Shown here in pieces: positions 4,462 to 11,452 of a stretch of 11,452 bases of DNA. Within the stretch, counting starts at the first letter, position 1, and each line of letters begins with the position of its first letter. The translations under genes were made by a program, and so were the position numbers. The stretch lies in the NCBI GenBank assembly GCA_003154025.1, contig PMCE01000514.1, positions 5,173-16,624 on the forward strand, written 5' to 3'. The notes below the pieces were generated by a model that saw only the letters and a program-made list of their open reading frames with translations, was not told the DNA's origin and searched no databases. Source of the DNA: Syntrophaceae bacterium (lineage in GTDB: Bacteria > Desulfobacterota > SM23-61).

Positions 4462-5733
4462 TCAATCCCTTTCCGAAGATTCAAGAATATCTCTGCCAAC
4501 CCGAAGGCGAAGTGTTTCGGGCATTCGAATCAAAAGTGGTGTTCTCAAAATAAGGTCCAAGGCAATAAAGGCCAGAAAAACGTATTGAGGCCCTATTCTA
4601 TCCCAGATAATGCCGGAAATGACGGCGATAAGGGCATTGAAAAACATTCTGGAAAATCGGACTATCCCCAGCCATCTCCCCATTTGTTCCGGCGGCACCA
4701 ACTCCCTTTCCATTGCCGCTGCAATAGGGGTGCCGATGTAATAGAAACCCTGTAGGATTCCAGCAATTAGTAGGAATGCCGGCATGTTCGCCCATACCAG
4801 CATCAGGTTGGAGATCCAAAAAAGTGGCATCGTCAAATACAGGATTCTCTTTCTTCCCACCCTGTCCGCCAGGCGACCCAGGGGAATCGCAAAAACGATA
4901 GAAGTCAAAGCAGACCCCGTAACCATTGCCCCTAAGATAAATGGATCGGCTCCCTTTATTTTATGTGCAAAAACCTGAGAGAAAGGGAAAACCATCGCCA
5001 TAGGCATAGAATTGAGGGCAGAAATAATCAGCCACCTCTTTAAATGCTTTCCTTCTTTCAGAACTTGATAGAGATCATGAAATATGTGGGGCCGGGTTTT
5101 CCTTTTTGATCCCTCCATCCTGCCCGATATCTGTGTCCATATGACTACAAAAGTGAATCCGCTAATAAGCGCGCTGACAAAGAAGAGGGGCCGGATGCCG
5201 CTGGCATTCACACCCCCAAATAGGGTGACCAGCCATGCCCCCAGCATAGGACCTGCCATCCCCAGCAAGCCAGCGGCAACAGTTTCGCATATTGTCATAC
5301 CTGTTGCCCTATCTTCATTTGCCAAACAATTTCCGCAAATTGTAGCACAGCTATGAATGCTCACCGAAGACCCAATCCAGTACGCCACCATTGCCAAAAT
5401 CGTGAGTAGCCAACTTTGGGCGATGCCGTAAGTTAAATAGGAAATGGCGAGAAAACCGATCCCGAGCAGGTAAATCTTTTTAGGACCGGATCTGTCTATG
5501 AACCAACCGGTTAGCGGACTAATGATACCGGCAGCAATCATTCCTAAGCTGTTCACGAAGCCTAATTCGGTTGCTGTTGCTCCCAAGGCGACGATATAAA
5601 GGGATAAATAGGGAAAGATTGTTTGGTAGGCGAACCTATCGAGAGACGTTCTTACGACCGTGATCTTCCAGTCCCATTGCTGCCTTCTGAGAAAGACCGC
5701 TGCATTCGAGGAGAGCAAACGTCGCAGGTTCAC
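4462..5733 (-). CDS. MFS transporter, 12 transmembrane helices
   Basis: This 423-residue inner-membrane secondary transporter belongs to the major facilitator superfamily. Twelve hydrophobic segments can be read in two halves, separated by a basic loop around 204-232. The MFS motif A loop occurs after TM2 (GWFIDRSGPKK, 76-86) and again between TM8 and TM9 (GRLADRVGRKR, 286-296). The N-terminal WDWKITVVRTSLDRFAYQTIFPYLS is an amphipathic lead into TM1. The substrate is not predictable; an organic acid or drug is possible. The start is GTG at 5733 with no good Shine-Dalgarno. An ATG at 5749 is in another frame, so the exact start is uncertain by some residues. A consensus sigma70 promoter lies about 80 bases upstream. 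The FAA-hydrolase gene follows 284 bases downstream on the same strand, so transporter plus hydrolase may form one catabolic unit. Confidence 0.87.
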   Translation of the reverse strand: MNLRRLLSSNAAVFLRRQQWDWKITVVRTSLDRFAYQTIFPYLSLYIVALGATATELGFVNSLGMIAAGIISPLTGWFIDRSGPKKIYLLGIGFLAISYLTYGIAQSWLLTILAMVAYWIGSSVSIHSCATICGNCLANEDRATGMTICETVAAGLLGMAGPMLGAWLVTLFGGVNASGIRPLFFVSALISGFTFVVIWTQISGRMEGSKRKTRPHIFHDLYQVLKEGKHLKRWLIISALNSMPMAMVFPFSQVFAHKIKGADPFILGAMVTGSALTSIVFAIPLGRLADRVGRKRILYLTMPLFWISNLMLVWANMPAFLLIAGILQGFYYIGTPIAAAMERELVPPEQMGRWLGIVRFSRMFFNALIAVISGIIWDRIGPQYVFLAFIALDLILRTPLLIRMPETLRLRVGRDILESSERD

Positions 5734-6009: not shown

Positions 6010-7371
6010 TCAGAGGTTCTTGAGTTTCCGCCAGAGTGTCACTGGGGAAATTTTGAGTTCGGCCGCCGCTTTTTTCCGGTTTCCCCCATGTTTCTCCAGC
6101 ATCCGTAAGACGGTCTGCCTCTCTGCCATCTTCAAGGGATCCCCAGCGGAGGAAACCCCGGGAATAGCTGCCCGGGTCCGGTTGAGGAGTTCTTGGGGGA
6201 GATGCTCCTCCCGGATCTGAGCGCCGTTACACAGGACAAAGGCGTTCTCCATGGCGTTTTCCAGCTCCCGGATGTTCCCGGGAAAATCGTAACGCATGAA
6301 TAGCTGCATCACCTCCGGAGAAACCGAAGCGATCCGTTTGTTCATCCTCACATTGAAGCGCTTCAAAAAGTGGTCCACCAGGAGGGGAACATCTTCCCTT
6401 CGCTCGGCGAGGGGCGGAAGCTCGAGCTTGACCACGTTCAGACGGTAGTAGAGATCTTCCCGGAAACGGCCCTCCTCAACCATTCGGACGAGGTTTTTGT
6501 TCGTTGCCGCCAGGATGCGCACGTCGGCTTTTCGCGACTTGGCGGCCCCCAGGGGCTCATATTCCCGATCCTGGAGGAAGCGCAGCAGCTTCACCTGAAC
6601 GGCCGGGGAAATGTCTCCCACCTCGTCCAGGAAGAGGGTCCCCCCCTCGGCCCGCGCGACCCGTCCGGGTTTATCCTTCTTGGCGTCGGTGAATGCCCCT
6701 TTGAGGTACCCGAAAAGCTCGGACTCGAGAAGCGTATCCGGCAGGGCGGCGCAGCTCACGACGACGTAGGGACCCTTCGACCGCAGACTGGCGGAATGGA
6801 TGGCCCGGGCAAACAGTTCTTTTCCCGAACCGCTGGGCCCCTGGATAAGAACCGTGCTGTTGCTCTCCGCCACGGCGGGCAGAAGGGAAAGGATCTTCTG
6901 GATCTTTTCATTCTTGCTCACAATGTCGCCGCTGCTGTATTTGCCCGTCAGCTCCCGCCGCAGGGCCTCGATGGCCGAAAGGTCCCGGAACGTCTCGGCC
7001 CCCCCGATGATCTTGCCTCTTTCATCCCGGAGGACGGCGGTGCTGATGCTGATCGGTACGGTTTCCCCCCTTGACGTCAGAATATCAACGGGCAAATCGA
7101 TGATCTCCCGGTTCGTCTCCTGGGTTTTTTTCAAAGCACAGGCGGTCTGGCAGATGTTGGCGTGGAAGACATCGAAACATTTTTGTCCCATGGCCCTGCG
7201 GCGGGAAACCCCGGTGATCCTCTCGGCGGCCCGGTTGAAGGAAGTGATCCTCCAGTCCCAGTCGATGGTGAAGACGCCGTCGGCGATGCTCTCCAGAATC
7301 GCCGAGAGCTGAGCCTCCCTACCTTTTCTTGCCGGCCTTGCCGGGCGTCGGCTCGTTCTTGGAGTTTCCAT
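6010..7371 (-). CDS. PAS-domain sigma54-dependent transcriptional activator (ORP-type regulator)
   Basis: This 453-residue bacterial enhancer-binding protein has no receiver domain. The PAS domain is at about 21-137 ([14 protein letters not shown] type) with three cysteines, C65, C74 and C78. The AAA+ domain is at about 148-395: Walker A GPSGSGKE (178-185), the sigma54-contact loop GAFTDA (225-230, a GAFTGA variant), Walker B TLFLDE (245-250), and the [10 protein letters not shown] arginine region (304-313). The C-terminal Fis-type helix-turn-helix is [27 protein letters not shown] (431-453). The ATG at 7371 is followed by a short basic tail before PAS. It is divergent from the NifX/MinD operon, which has a sigma54 promoter and paired palindromes, so that operon is its likely target. 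This matches the cognate regulator of the Desulfovibrio ORP operons. The gene has its own sigma70 promoter; the palindromes lie about 20 bp upstream of that -35, so autoregulation is possible. Confidence 0.93.
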
Positions 7372-7432: not shown

Positions 7433-7452
7433 AGGATTTTCCACTTTCCGTA

Positions 7453-7468
7453 ATTTCATTTTTGAAAT
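7453..7468. promoter_or_regulatory. Enhancer palindrome 1 (ATTTCA-N4-TGAAAT)
   Basis: A perfect 6-bp dyad with a TTTT centre, centred at 7460.5, about 161 bp before the predicted sigma54 start site. It is a likely binding site for the divergent Fis-type activator, since identical arms recur in site 2. Confidence 0.68.
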
Positions 7469-7492
7469 GCATTTCATTTATGCATTTCATTA
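7467..7492. repeat. Tandem 13-bp direct repeat between the two palindromes
   Basis: ATGCATTTCATTT (7467-7479) is followed directly by ATGCATTTCATTA (7480-7492), differing only in the last base. It supplies an extra ATTTCA half-site at 7471-7476, and ATGCAT is palindromic with a second ATGCAT (7467-7472 and 7480-7485). It may be a third, degenerate activator site or the trace of a local duplication. Confidence 0.6.
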
Positions 7493-7500
7493 TTGAAATG
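7483..7500. promoter_or_regulatory. Enhancer palindrome 2 (CATTTCA-N4-TGAAATG)
   Basis: A perfect 7-bp dyad with a TTAT centre, centred at 7491.5, about 130 bp before the predicted sigma54 start. It is 31 bp (about three helical turns) from site 1, which would place two activator dimers on the same DNA face. The intervening stretch 7501-7594 shows no clear IHF consensus. Confidence 0.7.
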
Positions 7501-7594: not shown

Positions 7595-7612
7595 TTGGCA
7601 TTTCCTTTGCAT
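7595..7612 (+). promoter_or_regulatory. Sigma54 (-24/-12) promoter of the ORP-type operon
   Basis: TTGGCATTTCCTTTGCAT has the -24 GG (7597-7598) and -12 GC (7609-7610) with the required 10-bp separation. It matches TGGCAC-N5-TTGCW except for the C6 position. The predicted start near 7622 leaves about 13 nt to the ATG at 7635, with GAGGAG (7626-7631) as ribosome binding site. Confidence 0.85.
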
Positions 7613-7634: not shown

Positions 7635-8006
7635 ATGAGAGTCGCCATCCCCATATTCGGCCCCCGGGTTTCGCCCCGGTTCGATTGCGCCCCCGGCCTC
7701 CTTCTCTTCACCCTGGAGGACGGCAAGGTGGTGGGAAGCGAGAAGTTTTCGCTCCAGGCCTGGGATCTCCTGCAGAGGCTGCAAAAGTTGAAAGAGCTCG
7801 GCGTGCAGACGCTTATCTGCGGGGGAATCGACGGGAATTCGGCGCAGGTTCTTTCGGAATATCGCATCCGGGTCATTGCCTGGGTGGCAGGGGAAGCCGA
7901 TGAGGCCATGCGGTGCTTCCTGGAGGGCAAGCTGCGTTCGGGCGTCGAACTGTGCCCGACATGCCGCCGGGGACAAAAGAGGGGGAGGAAATTTCGTTGG
8001 GCTTAA
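7635..8006 (+). CDS. NifX/NifB-family (dinitrogenase cofactor-type) protein, first copy
   Basis: This 123-residue cytoplasmic protein belongs to the DiNase Fe-Mo cofactor-biosynthesis fold (NifX, NafY, ORP; RNase H-like). Family signs are MRVAIPIFGPRVSPRFDCAPGLLL at the N-terminus, ICGGIDGNSAQVL (61-73) and GIRV/W-type strands at 78-84. Cysteines are C18, C62, C94 and a C-terminal CPTC (107-110) before a basic tail; the last could bind metal. An in-frame TTG at 7551 would add 28 residues, but it lies upstream of the sigma54 promoter. The ATG at 7635 has a proper GAGGAG and was chosen. It is the first gene after the sigma54 promoter, 24 bp before a second NifX-like gene. Context suggests a small metal-cluster carrier or scaffold in an ORP-like complex. 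There is no nif structural gene in view. Confidence 0.85.
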   Translation: MRVAIPIFGPRVSPRFDCAPGLLLFTLEDGKVVGSEKFSLQAWDLLQRLQKLKELGVQTLICGGIDGNSAQVLSEYRIRVIAWVAGEADEAMRCFLEGKLRSGVELCPTCRRGQKRGRKFRWA

Positions 8007-8030: not shown

Positions 8031-8411
8031 ATGAAAATCGCTTTTGCCAGTGAAGACAAGATGGGACTTAGCGGGGAAGTCAGCGCCCACTTCGGCCGGT
8101 GTGCCCACTACACCTTCCTGGAGGTGGAGGAGGGAAAGGTGAAAGGATGCCAGGTTGTGGATAATCCTTACCATGAGAACCATATCCCGGGGAAAGTCCC
8201 GGAGTTCATTCACTCCCAGAAAGCCGACGTGATGATTGCGGGGGGAATGGGACCGCGGGCCATCGAATTCTTCGACGGCTACGGAATCGAAGCCGTGACC
8301 GGAGCATTTGGGAAGATCGAAGATGTCCTGAGCGCCTATCTCCGGGGGAAACTGCGCGGAGCCGGAGGGTGTCACCACGACCATCCGGAAAGCTGTGGGA
8401 ATCATTCCTAA
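8031..8411 (+). CDS. NifX/ORP-like protein, second copy with His/Cys tail
   Basis: This is a 126-residue DiNase-superfamily protein. It opens MKIAFASEDKMGLSGEVSAHFGRCAHY (typical of ORP/NifX-like proteins, with C24) and carries DVMIAGGMGPRAIEFFDGYGIEAVTGAFGKIEDVLSAYL (66-104) in the second half. The C-terminal extension GGCHHDHPESCGNHS (112-126) concentrates His and Cys, so metal binding is likely. GAGGAGG (8018-8024) precedes the ATG by 6 nt. In Desulfovibrio, the orange protein of this superfamily holds a Mo-Cu sulfide cluster; this gene is the best candidate for the ORP counterpart. Whether it binds Mo-Cu cannot be read from sequence. The next operon gene (8514) appears to be an insertion. 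Confidence 0.86.
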   Translation: MKIAFASEDKMGLSGEVSAHFGRCAHYTFLEVEEGKVKGCQVVDNPYHENHIPGKVPEFIHSQKADVMIAGGMGPRAIEFFDGYGIEAVTGAFGKIEDVLSAYLRGKLRGAGGCHHDHPESCGNHS

Positions 8412-8513: not shown

Positions 8514-8852
8514 ATGATTAAACGTATACTGATGGTGTCCGTCTTAGCTGCTGCCCTGTCTTCGTCTATTGGGTTCACGCTCGCGGCTGACCAGCAAGAA
8601 CAAATCTACGGCAGCCAACTGATGACACAACAAGAGCGAACCGAATATCGCGCCAAAATGCGCGCCGCGAAAACCGTCGACGAGCAAGAGCAAATCCGAA
8701 CGGAGCATCACGAGCGCATGAAGGAGCGAGCCACGGCACGTGGTGTGACACTGCCCGACGAGCCACCCGCTAGAGGAGGTGGAATGGGTCCCGGCGGTGG
8801 TATGGCTCCGGGTGGCGGTGGCATGGGACCTGGTGGGGGTCGAGGCCGCTGA
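8514..8852 (+). CDS. Small secreted Gly/Met-rich protein on a cassette
   Basis: This 112-residue protein begins with a signal peptide, MIKRILMVSVLAAALSSSIG, with likely cleavage near LAA-DQQ (about residue 24). A hydrophilic helical region follows (QIYGSQLMTQQERTEYRAKM, then EQIRTEHHERMKERA, about 29-76), then a repetitive GGGMGPGGG tail (about 83-112). From memory, similar periplasmic hypothetical proteins with the QIYGSQLMT...EYRAKM...HHERMKERAKARG pattern are common in other Proteobacteria; no function is known to me. AAGGAG (8502-8507) sits 6 nt before the ATG. An upstream in-frame TTG at 8460 would add residues without an RBS. Codon use (CGT, GCG, CAA) differs from the GGG/CCC-rich neighbours. 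Together with the flanking sites, this suggests horizontal arrival as an integron cassette. Confidence 0.82.
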   Translation: MIKRILMVSVLAAALSSSIGFTLAADQQEQIYGSQLMTQQERTEYRAKMRAAKTVDEQEQIRTEHHERMKERATARGVTLPDEPPARGGGMGPGGGMAPGGGGMGPGGGRGR

Positions 8853-8993: not shown

Positions 8994-9452
8994 ATGACCT
9001 TGGAAGAAATGAAGGAAAAAGCGATACAACTGATGCTGAAGCGGTTCCATTGAAGCCAGGCCGTTCTTGCGGTCGGGCAAGAAAAATTGGGGCGAAACGG
9101 GGACGAAGTCACCAGGGCCTTGGGGGCCTTCGGGGGCGGATTGGGGGGAAACGGAGGAGTTTGCGGAGCCCTGGTGGGGGGGCTCGCGACCATCGGTCTT
9201 AGATTCAGCCGCGGCCGCGAGGAAGAAAAGGAAGACCCCCGGATGTGGGTTTACGCTCATGAGCTCTTCGATCGTTTCCGGGACGAGATCGTCAAAGAAC
9301 ACGGAGGGATTTCGTGCCGGGAGATTGTCCATGTGGATTGGCGAGACCGCGATCAGGTGAAGAGCTTTCACAGCGGGGACAAGAGGCTGGAGTGCAGGCG
9401 CATCGTAGGGGAAGCGGCCAAGCTGGTTGGTGAACTTCTGGAGCGCACCTAA
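8994..9452 (+). CDS. C-GCAxxG-C-C family selenoprotein (UGA at codon 20 read as Sec)
   Basis: One continuous frame from the ATG at 8994 to the stop at 9450-9452 is interrupted only by TGA at 9051-9053. Read as selenocysteine it gives a 152-residue redox-family protein: MTLEEMKEKAIQLMLKRFH-U-SQAVLAV, where the family has Cys in the CSQAV motif. Then come GAFGGGLGGNGGVCGALVGG (44-63, with C57), C108 (GGISCREIV) and C134 (RLECRRIVGEA), which completes the C...GxCGAxxG...C...C pattern. AAGGAG (8978-8983) lies 10 nt before the ATG. A SECIS-like hairpin follows the UGA. Automated calls would probably start at TTG 9087 or ATG 9243 and lose the Sec. The family is thought to be redox-active or metal-binding; the exact function is unknown. 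To my memory, Sec-containing members are recognised elsewhere. It sits in the ORP-type operon before the MinD ATPases and may handle electrons or metal for that complex. Confidence 0.85.
9051..9053 (+). other. In-frame UGA, predicted selenocysteine codon (Sec20)
   Basis: TGA falls exactly at the first conserved Cys of the C-GCAxxG-C-C family. Family-typical sequence continues in the same frame on both sides (LMLKRFH before, SQAVLAVGQEKLG after). Confidence 0.82.
9064..9083 (+). promoter_or_regulatory. Bacterial SECIS hairpin
   Basis: TTCTTGC (9064-9070) pairs perfectly with GCAAGAA (9077-9083) around the loop GGTCGG (9071-9076). The loop GGU is 18-20 nt after the UGA. By my count the E. coli fdhF SECIS has its GGUC about 19-21 nt after the UGA. 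A short stem with GGU in the loop at this distance is what SelB recognises. Confidence 0.8.
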
Positions 9453-9522: not shown

Positions 9523-10386
9523 ATGATCATTTCAATAGCCAGCGGAAAAGGGGGAACCGGGAAAACCACCGTGGCTTTGAATTTGGCCCTTTCTCTGGAG
9601 AAGGTTCAGCTCATCGACGCCGACGTGGAGGAGCCCAATCTGCATCTCTTTCTCCCCATCGAAAGAAAGAGGATGTTTCCCGTTTGCCTGCCCGTTCCGG
9701 AGGTGGATGAAGAGAAGTGTACCTATTGCGGAAAATGCTCCGAGGTCTGCCGGTTCAACGCCCTGGCCGTGGTCAAGAACCAGGTCCTGATCTTTCCGGA
9801 ACTCTGCCACGGATGCGGAGGGTGCTCGATTCTGTGCCCCGAGCGGGCCATCCGGGAAAAACCCAGGGAGATCGGGTATGTCTGGGAGGGAGAGGCCAAG
9901 GGACTCTCCCTGGTAGAGGGCATCCTGAACGTGGGGGAGCCCATCCCCGCCCCGGTTATCCGCAAAGCGAAGGAACGAATCGACCGCACCCGAACGGTGA
10001 TCATCGACTGTTCTCCGGGCACCTCCTGCCCGGTGATCGAGGGAGTCCGGGGAAGCGATGTCTGCCTCCTGGTCACGGAGGATACTCCTTTCGGTTTGAA
10101 CGACCTTGAACTGGCCGTGGAGATGGTCAGGGCCATCGGAATCCCCCTGGGGGTCTTCGTCAACCGGGCGGACCTGGGGGATGGAAGAGTGAAAATGTAT
10201 TGTCAAAAAGAAGGCCTTCCCCTCATGGGCGAGATGCCCCATGACCGGCGGATCGCCGAGGTCTATTCCCGGGGAGGAATCGTAGTAGAGGAGTTGCCCG
10301 AGTATCGACCTCTATTTTCAGCCCTCTTCCATGGAGTCCGGCAGATCTGCGAATCCAAATCCCCCTTCCTCCCCGGCAGGGGATAG
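9523..10386 (+). CDS. MinD-superfamily ATPase with inserted two-cluster ferredoxin domain (first)
   Basis: This is a 287-residue cytoplasmic P-loop ATPase of the Mrp/MinD/NBP35 class. The deviant Walker A is SGKGGTGKTT (7-16, signature K9 and P-loop K14). LIDADVEEPNLHLF (30-43) is the Walker A'-type strand. The inserted 2x[4Fe-4S] ferredoxin domain has C66, C69, C72, C76 and C95, C98, C101, C105 (CTYCGKC...C and CHGCGGC...C). VIIDCSPGTSCPVI (159-172) is the switch II/Walker B region, and VTEDTPFGLND (184-194) follows. GAGGAG (9511-9516) lies 6 nt before the ATG. An in-frame TTG at 9496 is less likely. In Desulfovibrio ORP loci, a pair of such ATPases belongs to the complex. They are thought to couple ATP hydrolysis to redox or metal-cluster handling, and a link to cell division has been reported there. 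Confidence 0.92.
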   Translation: MIISIASGKGGTGKTTVALNLALSLEKVQLIDADVEEPNLHLFLPIERKRMFPVCLPVPEVDEEKCTYCGKCSEVCRFNALAVVKNQVLIFPELCHGCGGCSILCPERAIREKPREIGYVWEGEAKGLSLVEGILNVGEPIPAPVIRKAKERIDRTRTVIIDCSPGTSCPVIEGVRGSDVCLLVTEDTPFGLNDLELAVEMVRAIGIPLGVFVNRADLGDGRVKMYCQKEGLPLMGEMPHDRRIAEVYSRGGIVVEELPEYRPLFSALFHGVRQICESKSPFLPGRG

Positions 10387-10413: not shown

Positions 10414-10956
10414 ATGGACTGGAAGGAAATATACCAGAAAGAAAGCAGCGATCCCTACGAGCCGATCGTTTATACCGAACGGGCCATGGAGCATTTCCGT
10501 AACCCCCGGAACGTGGGCCAGGTGGAAAAGCCGGACGGCAGCGGGAGCTTCGGGGACCCCTCCTGCGGGGACTATATCGAGGTGGGCATCCGCGTGGATG
10601 AGCAAGGGGAACGTCTTTCGGAGGTAAAGTTTCTCATCCACGGCTGCGCCGGGGCCATCGCCACCTCCAGCGTCATGAGCGAACTGGCCATGGGCAAAAC
10701 CCTGAATGAGGCCCTCTCCCTCACGGATGACGACATCATCCAGGCCCTGGGGGGATTGCCCAAAAGGAAGCAGCATTGTTCCCTTCTGGGTCTCCAGGCC
10801 CTGCAGCAGGCCATCGGAGATTATCTATTCAAAAAGCTCCTGTTCCGGGAAGGGGTGGTGAAGACCGAGGAAGAATACCAAAAGATCAAGGCTCAGCACC
10901 AGGTCAATTTTCAGCCTCACTCCTGCGACGGGAGCTGCGAGGAAGAAAAGCCATGA
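10414..10956 (+). CDS. IscU/NifU-N type iron-sulfur scaffold protein
   Basis: This 180-residue protein carries an IscU domain (about 18-145). All three cluster cysteines are present: C51 in GDPSCGDYIEV with the conserved Asp53, C78 in IHGCAGAIATSS, and C122 in KQHCSLLGLQAL. MEHFRNPRNVGQVEKPDG (25-42) is the usual N-terminal motif. A C-terminal extension ends HSCDGSCEEEKP (169-180), whose CxxxC may be an extra metal or thiol site. No NifU C-terminal domain is fused. It starts 27 bp after the first MinD gene with only a weak RBS. Its stop overlaps the next start in ATGA (10953-10956), so translation is probably coupled. No cysteine desulfurase is in view. Placement between two ferredoxin-type ATPases suggests assembly of a cluster for this operon's own proteins rather than general housekeeping; this is inference. 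Confidence 0.9.
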   Translation: MDWKEIYQKESSDPYEPIVYTERAMEHFRNPRNVGQVEKPDGSGSFGDPSCGDYIEVGIRVDEQGERLSEVKFLIHGCAGAIATSSVMSELAMGKTLNEALSLTDDDIIQALGGLPKRKQHCSLLGLQALQQAIGDYLFKKLLFREGVVKTEEEYQKIKAQHQVNFQPHSCDGSCEEEKP

Positions 10957-11452
10957 AGCAACTTACGGTGATCAGCGGAAAGGGCGGAACCGGCAAGACG
11001 ACCCTCCTGGCCTCTCTGGCCACCCTGGCCGGGCGGGCGGTGATCGTGGACGCCGACGTGGACGCCGCCGATCTGCACCTCCTGTTGAAGCCCCGGGTTC
11101 GGCGCCGGGAACCTTTCGTGGCGTCCCAAGTCGCCCGGATCGAGCCGGAGCGATGCGACGGGTGCAACCGGTGCGTGGAGGTTTGCCGCTTTTCGGCCAT
11201 TTCGAGCCTGAAGGTCGACCCCATATCCTGCGAGGGCTGCGGGGTTTGCTTTCACGTCTGCCCGAAAGCAGCCATTTCCCTGGAGGATGTCCAGAGCGGA
11301 GAGTGGTTCATCTCCCAAACTCGCTGCGGTCCCATGGTCCACGCCAAACTCGGCGTGGCCCAGGAGAATTCGGGAAAGCTGGTGACCCTAATTCGGAAAG
11401 AGGCCCAGCGACTGGCCAAAGAAGAAGGATATCCCCTCATTCTCATCGACGG
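10953..11452 (+). CDS. MinD-superfamily ATPase with inserted ferredoxin domain (second, 3' partial)
   Basis: At least 166 residues are visible before the window ends. The deviant Walker A is SGKGGTGKTT (8-17), followed by VIVDADVDAADLHLLL (30-45). The inserted ferredoxin has CDGCNRC...C (C68, C71, C74, C78) and CEGCGVC...C (C93, C96, C99, C103), so two [4Fe-4S] sites. LILIDG at the window end begins the Walker B region. The overall layout mirrors the upstream MinD gene, but the sequences are clearly diverged, the usual heteropair arrangement in ORP-type loci. The start overlaps the preceding stop by 4 nt. The remaining ~120 residues and any further operon genes are outside the window. Confidence 0.9.
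   Translation, partial: MKQLTVISGKGGTGKTTLLASLATLAGRAVIVDADVDAADLHLLLKPRVRRREPFVASQVARIEPERCDGCNRCVEVCRFSAISSLKVDPISCEGCGVCFHVCPKAAISLEDVQSGEWFISQTRCGPMVHAKLGVAQENSGKLVTLIRKEAQRLAKEEGYPLILID

Follow-up and report, generated by a model that had tools for sequence, protein, structure and literature searches.

A predicted selenoprotein of the C-GCAxxG-C-C family in an ORP-like operon of a Syntrophaceae bacterium and the exchange of selenocysteine and cysteine among its relatives

The window analyzed here (the whole stretch of 11,452 nucleotides at positions 5,173 to 16,624 of the forward strand of contig PMCE01000514.1, GenBank assembly GCA_003154025.1, Syntrophaceae bacterium) carries a gene of the C_GCAxxG_C_C family (PF09719) with an in-frame UGA codon at the place of the family's first cysteine (Cys). 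Comparison with related genes strongly supports the original prediction, made from the letters of the window, that the gene encodes a selenoprotein in which this UGA is read as selenocysteine (Sec) and that it contains a bacterial selenocysteine insertion sequence (bSECIS); the evidence consists of the codons found in the aligned column, a conserved stem, and a freeze of synonymous codons that is limited to the genes with TGA. Judged from a quick tree, Sec and Cys have been exchanged repeatedly in this branch, with the hairpin kept in the Sec genes and lost in the Cys genes.

The UGA codon and the protein family

A single reading frame runs from the ATG at 8994, preceded by AGGAG, through the TGA at 9051-9053 to the stop codon at 9450-9452. 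Family sequence lies on both sides of the TGA, as had been predicted: the read-through protein of 152 amino acids (aa) scored 86.4 bits against PF09719 (curated cut-off 27) and 60.8 bits against TIGR01909 (cut-off 47.4), clearing both cut-offs for the C-GCAxxG-C-C (seleno)protein. The four conserved Cys positions of the family are all accounted for (U20, C57, C108, and C134); across an alignment of 22 diverse rows Cys 57, 108, and 134 are invariant and the column of the first Cys is conserved to at least 90%, two of the rows (L082 and L085) beginning after it.

A Sec-containing C-GCAxxG-C-C protein is an already known kind, as the original prediction had stated, because Sec forms appear in two reviews on prokaryotic selenoproteins (two forms in PMC13188914, with references dating from 2007 and 2008, and one form in PMC9312934) and because the NCBIfam name of TIGR01909 is “(seleno)protein”. 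The review tables give no Sec motif for this protein. The additions of the present analysis are the frequent Sec/Cys exchange in the branch, two types of hairpin, and the placement in an operon. Two further models match below their cut-offs: residues 1-138 match the first part of NF045501 (HUGP/GUXX-star fusion selenoprotein; 59.8 bits, far below its cut-off of 325, over model positions 5-144 of 236 only), and the HUGP of its name may place Sec where the window protein has H-U-S-Q; residues 8-150 score 85.4 bits against NF045669 (DVU_1555 family C-GCAxxG-C-C protein), below its cut-off of 103. Other PF09719 proteins with Sec form a separate group (L068, L069, L071-L074, and G017:C57), in which the position of the first Cys likewise holds Sec, but within the motif N-U-A-E and with different letters following the UGA.

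Codons at the selenocysteine position across relatives

In the first scan, 26 loci were found on genome contigs; the counts exclude L024-L026, which are distant and all have Cys. The remaining 23, from genomes labelled Syntrophales, Syntrophobacterales, Syntrophaceae, Smithellaceae, or unplaced Deltaproteobacteria, carry TGA in 15 cases and TGC in eight. A second sample comprised 395 genomes of the phylum, 30 of which had matches at an E-value of 1e-35 or better; it contributed 27 copies after removal of duplicates. Together with the window and the 23 loci this makes 51 copies, with TGA in 30, TGC in 17, TGT in four, and no other codon in the column, so that the replacement of U20 by Cys in homologs, proposed as a check of the original prediction, was indeed found. 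A sequencing or assembly error that turned a Cys codon into TGA is refuted by the recurrence of TGA at this codon in 15 of the 23 genome loci and 30 of the 51 copies, no point in its support was found, and we assign it a practically negligible probability.

The 19 codons before the UGA were compared in 10 of the 16 first-set TGA genes. Third positions account for 388 of 717 base differences, and synonymous changes for 219 of 526 codon differences in frame; when the frame is shifted, the latter fall to 27 of 533 and 27 of 529. Two public proteins (P0007 and P0080) have tryptophan at the Sec place, which is probably a pipeline translation of TGA, since P0007 is nearly identical to L009, whose codon is TGA. 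A third public protein (P0088) joins the later part of the PF09719 family to a start matching PF01558 (2-oxoacid oxidoreductase gamma); it sits on a contig of 1133 bases and may be an assembly chimera.

The hairpin downstream of the UGA codon

The hairpin described in the original prediction was confirmed in the sequence: a perfect 7-bp stem (TTCTTGC at 9064-9070 and GCAAGAA at 9077-9083) closes the loop GGTCGG (9071-9076), with 17 nucleotides (nt) between the UGA and the loop and the GGU lying 18-20 nt after the UGA. These values fall inside the bSECIS limits given in PMC13188914 (loop of 3-9 nt with G in its first two places, upper stem of 4-16 bp, 16-37 nt after the UGA), which were used here without the energy limit of that paper. 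A scan of the window at the Rfam gathering thresholds gave no match.

Both the 7-bp stem and the GGT loop are kept in 15 of the 16 first-set TGA genes (window included), the exception being L018 with a 5-bp stem of different letters and the loop GGTCG; the best comparable stem in the eight first-set Cys genes has 4 bp. Among the TGA genes 195 of 1141 comparisons show a synonymous difference in codons 1-10 after the UGA. The share is higher farther downstream, with 299 of 662 for codons 11-20, 1754 of 3436 for codons 21-60, and 2347 of 4676 from codon 61 to the end. The freeze goes with TGA, because codons 1-10 of the Cys genes are not frozen (116 of 216). More distant TGA genes have a second type of hairpin with the loop GTG (e.g., L101, L105, L116, and L117). 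Within the published limits, an unbroken stem of at least 7 bp is present in 21 of 30 TGA and none of 21 Cys copies, and one of at least 6 bp in 22 of 30 TGA copies. An earlier count with looser spacing (at least 6 bp in 23 of 30 TGA and three of 21 Cys copies) was replaced by the count under the published limits and was not used.

If the UGA were instead a true stop, a protein of 121 aa would start at the TTG at 9087 and the 19 codons upstream would be a leader peptide or a relic. Short proteins of this kind do occur in public records (among the 120 matches listed of 371 homologs, the N-terminal motif is missing in 34, of which 29 have 110-128 aa), but the coding-type codon pattern before the UGA, a column holding only TGA, TGC, or TGT, and a hairpin frozen in the TGA genes alone make a true stop very improbable.

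Exchange of selenocysteine and cysteine

A quick tree was inferred from 78 of 108 prepared rows, with long branches present. Sec and Cys genes are intermixed in it (minimum of nine changes, two of them forced by well-supported branches), and a single Sec clade, i.e., one origin of Sec, was rejected in this tree (p-AU 1e-5). The gene L018 falls in a supported group with 41 Cys rows; this nesting and its own stem letters suggest a separate gain of Sec. Two neighboring copies occur in each of four genomes (G078, G216, G299, and G337), as Sec and Cys in three and as two Sec copies in G299. Neighboring pairs were seen at L122:4102-5085 (in G078), L112, L116, and L119, with one Cys and one Sec copy, or both Sec in L116.

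Selenocysteine machinery in related genomes

The proposed search for selA, selB, selC, and selD was made in relatives, where the three protein genes were found in every genome searched for them and the tRNA-Sec in most cases. SelB was over the cut-off in 23 of 23 first-set genomes vs. two of 14 in the control, and SelA and SelD in all 10 genomes searched (out of 26), with an in-frame TGA in each of the 10 SelD matches. A full-length tRNA-Sec of at least 70 bits was found in 18 of the 23 first-set genomes and a partial one (51.8 bits) in G019 and G021; in G003, G006, and G014 it was not distinct from other tRNA-like matches, a soft result as 117 first-look candidates per genome were scored. The nearest genome (G001) has SelA, SelB, SelD, and tRNA-Sec, its SelD being a piece of 139.6 bits at a contig end. 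The ORP-like operon of G024 is directly preceded by a selD that contains an in-frame TGA (L094:1062-1988).

Fold and proposed chemistry

The predicted model of the window protein matches the split-Soret cytochrome c of PDB entry 1h21, and by this model the matched part of 1h21 appears to have the same fold (identity of 22% where the two align; 240 residues in 1h21 vs. 152 in the window protein). The title of 1h21 describes a novel iron center. The window protein has no signal-like start that could be seen, and is therefore probably cytoplasmic. As its name implies, the split-Soret cytochrome c of 1h21 carries haems.

Considered as a whole, we find it probable that the gene encodes a Sec-decoded redox protein with a split-Soret-type fold, a site of four positions, and a local operon placement. 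The UGA would be decoded as Sec with the help of the hairpin just downstream, as the comparison indicates, and Sec20 would replace the first of four conserved thiols (with Cys57, Cys108, and Cys134). The four positions may come together in a single site, either as ligands of an iron or Fe-S center or as a selenenylsulfide/thiol pair, and Sec may make this center faster or more reducing than Cys would. In the lineage of the window the gene would lie, probably co-transcribed, in a σ54-regulated ORP-like Fe-S operon, a local placement outside its general function. More specifically, Sec could be the ligand of a non-haem iron or Fe-S center in the split-Soret-type fold, which we offer as a tentative and rather doubtful prediction.

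Several observations weigh against this interpretation. Taken alone, the window hairpin is no more than moderately unusual (it is equaled in 3.6% of synonymous recodings), the window's own sequence has its energy minimum in another hairpin, and the folding z-score is -0.56; folding of the single sequence was therefore set aside as too weak a proof of a SECIS, and the case rests on comparison. An unbroken 6-bp stem is also carried by four of the 21 Cys copies, and eight of the 30 TGA copies stay below 6 bp (L018, L102, L104 with 3 bp, L110, L112, L114, L115, and L119). The Sec machinery of the window's own organism is deduced from relatives, and one relative with a TGA gene (G003) had no clear tRNA-Sec (best 45.6 bits, with 117 of 1048 first-look candidates scored). 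The Foldseek match to 1h21 has an E-value of 0.013, and the sequence alignments with 1h21 stop short of the first Cys.

Genomic context

The features of the window are given in Table 1.

Table 1. Features in and around the ORP-like operon of the window.
Feature	Position	Strand	Remarks
σ54-dependent regulator, divergent	6010..7371	-	PAS, AAA+, Fis HTH
σ54 (-24/-12) promoter-like site	7596..7611	+	1 mismatch; precedes operon
NifX/Orp8-type protein a (Nitro_FeMo-Co)	7635..8006	+	start moved to ATG 7635, past promoter-like site
NifX/Orp8-type protein b (Nitro_FeMo-Co)	8031..8411	+	
Small protein	8514..8852	+	start resembles a signal peptide, tail rich in Gly, Met, and Pro; no family match; not in L001
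C_GCAxxG_C_C (PF09719) selenoprotein gene	8994..9452	+	152 aa with Sec20; other conserved Cys: 57, 108, 134
UGA read as selenocysteine	9051..9053	+	residue 20 = family's first Cys; TGA in 30/51 and Cys codon in 21/51 copies
bSECIS upper hairpin	9064..9083	+	7-bp stem, loop GGUCGG
MinD-type ATPase, two 4Fe-4S motifs (Orp3/Orp4-like)	9523..10386	+	
NifU N-terminal-domain scaffold protein	10414..10956	+	PF01592 134.6 bits
Second MinD-type ATPase with 4Fe-4S motifs	10959..11450	+	cut by window end

The designation of the operon as ORP-like, already made in the original prediction, is supported by its σ54 regulator, a -24/-12-like site in common with the loci L001 and L092, a pair of NifX-type proteins, a pair of MinD-ferredoxin ATPases, and a Mrp NTPase (PF10609, 333.9 bits) that follows in a related stretch of the same class (L096); the place of MrpORP (Orp9) would lie beyond the window end. 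Papers on Desulfovibrio vulgaris give the layout and part names of its ORP operons (PMC6345978; PMC3897727), and the window likewise has a σ54 regulator and Orp8-type and Orp3/4-type proteins (PMC6345978), with a counterpart of the Mrp NTPase in L096. The window operon differs from those by its NifU-type gene and by the selenoprotein, the latter being confined to this lineage. The -24/-12 site, searched for with the σ54 consensus, lies 24 bases upstream of ATG 7635, where the first NifX gene starts, and L001 and L092 have a perfect site at the corresponding place; its weight rests on this shared place, because the window has four sites when up to two mismatches are allowed, a number that equals chance (mean 3.85). 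TGAAATG/CATTTCA-like repeats at about 7450-7500, upstream of the NifX gene, are kept in L001 and are possible binding sites of the σ54 regulator.

Between nifXb and minDa the selenoprotein gene was found in the window and L001 only, on the same strand and in the same slot, the two copies being about 89-90% identical; the small gene upstream of it in the window is missing from L001. Eight genomes of L001's class were examined: G001 has both operon and gene, five (G003, G008, G009, G024, and G025) have the operon with the gene absent in every case, the contig of G008 starting inside nifXb, and no such MinD gene was found in G002 and G026. A Sec ortholog is on a different contig in G003, G008, and G009, and G024 and G025 had no match to the gene at the threshold used. 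A profile search covered 58 MinD and operon loci, with the window as positive control, and returned no family members outside L001 and its copy L031, except for a distinct Cys paralog that lies 5 to 8 kb downstream at the loci L092 and L093. The MinD loci represent 42 other genomes (17 from one search and 25 of 217 matching in another), and no family member was found in their flanks of up to about 1.5 kb on each side (shorter in 12 of 51 loci). The presence only in the window and L001 (copy L031), together with the absence from the other operons, makes it most likely that the gene entered the ORP-like operon in one lineage, where co-transcription and a local use are possible.

Elsewhere the neighbors vary, and no function was built on them. 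The upstream neighbor is an acyl-CoA synthetase subunit in L002 and L003 (by Pfam) and in L008 and L020 (by a like protein start); other loci adjoin a short-chain dehydrogenase (L015 by Pfam; L012, L014, L016, L018, and L023 by a like start) or a thiolase (L019 by Pfam; L021 by a like start). Among ten wider loci, two upstream genes are common to L124 and L130 and one neighbor to L122 and L123, and no ORP-type protein was matched, apart from the σ54 regulator, which gave weak hits at L126 and L129.

The original prediction had further proposed a redox partner for the ORP machinery, i.e., a dedicated electron donor or reductase for ORP-type Fe-S or metal-cluster assembly. The shared strand and slot of two closely similar copies, in an operon with its own regulator and σ54-like site, would fit such a role, but the empty slot in the five genomes of the same class, the different neighbors of the orthologs, and the flanks of the MinD loci leave it without support beyond one lineage, and we judge it unlikely. 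A narrow literature search found no paper on a selenoprotein paired with ORP genes.

Significance

Gene calls appear to shorten or misread this gene, and the Sec branch of a redox family is thus partly hidden behind short or Cys-like entries. The repeated Sec/Cys exchanges supply natural pairs in which the contribution of Sec at a single site can be compared, and the link to the fold of the split-Soret cytochrome c gives a concrete and testable idea of the chemistry. If Sec is indeed a ligand of the predicted center, a natural selenolate-ligated center would have been swapped repeatedly with a thiolate-ligated one within one family, including neighboring Sec and Cys copies in one genome.
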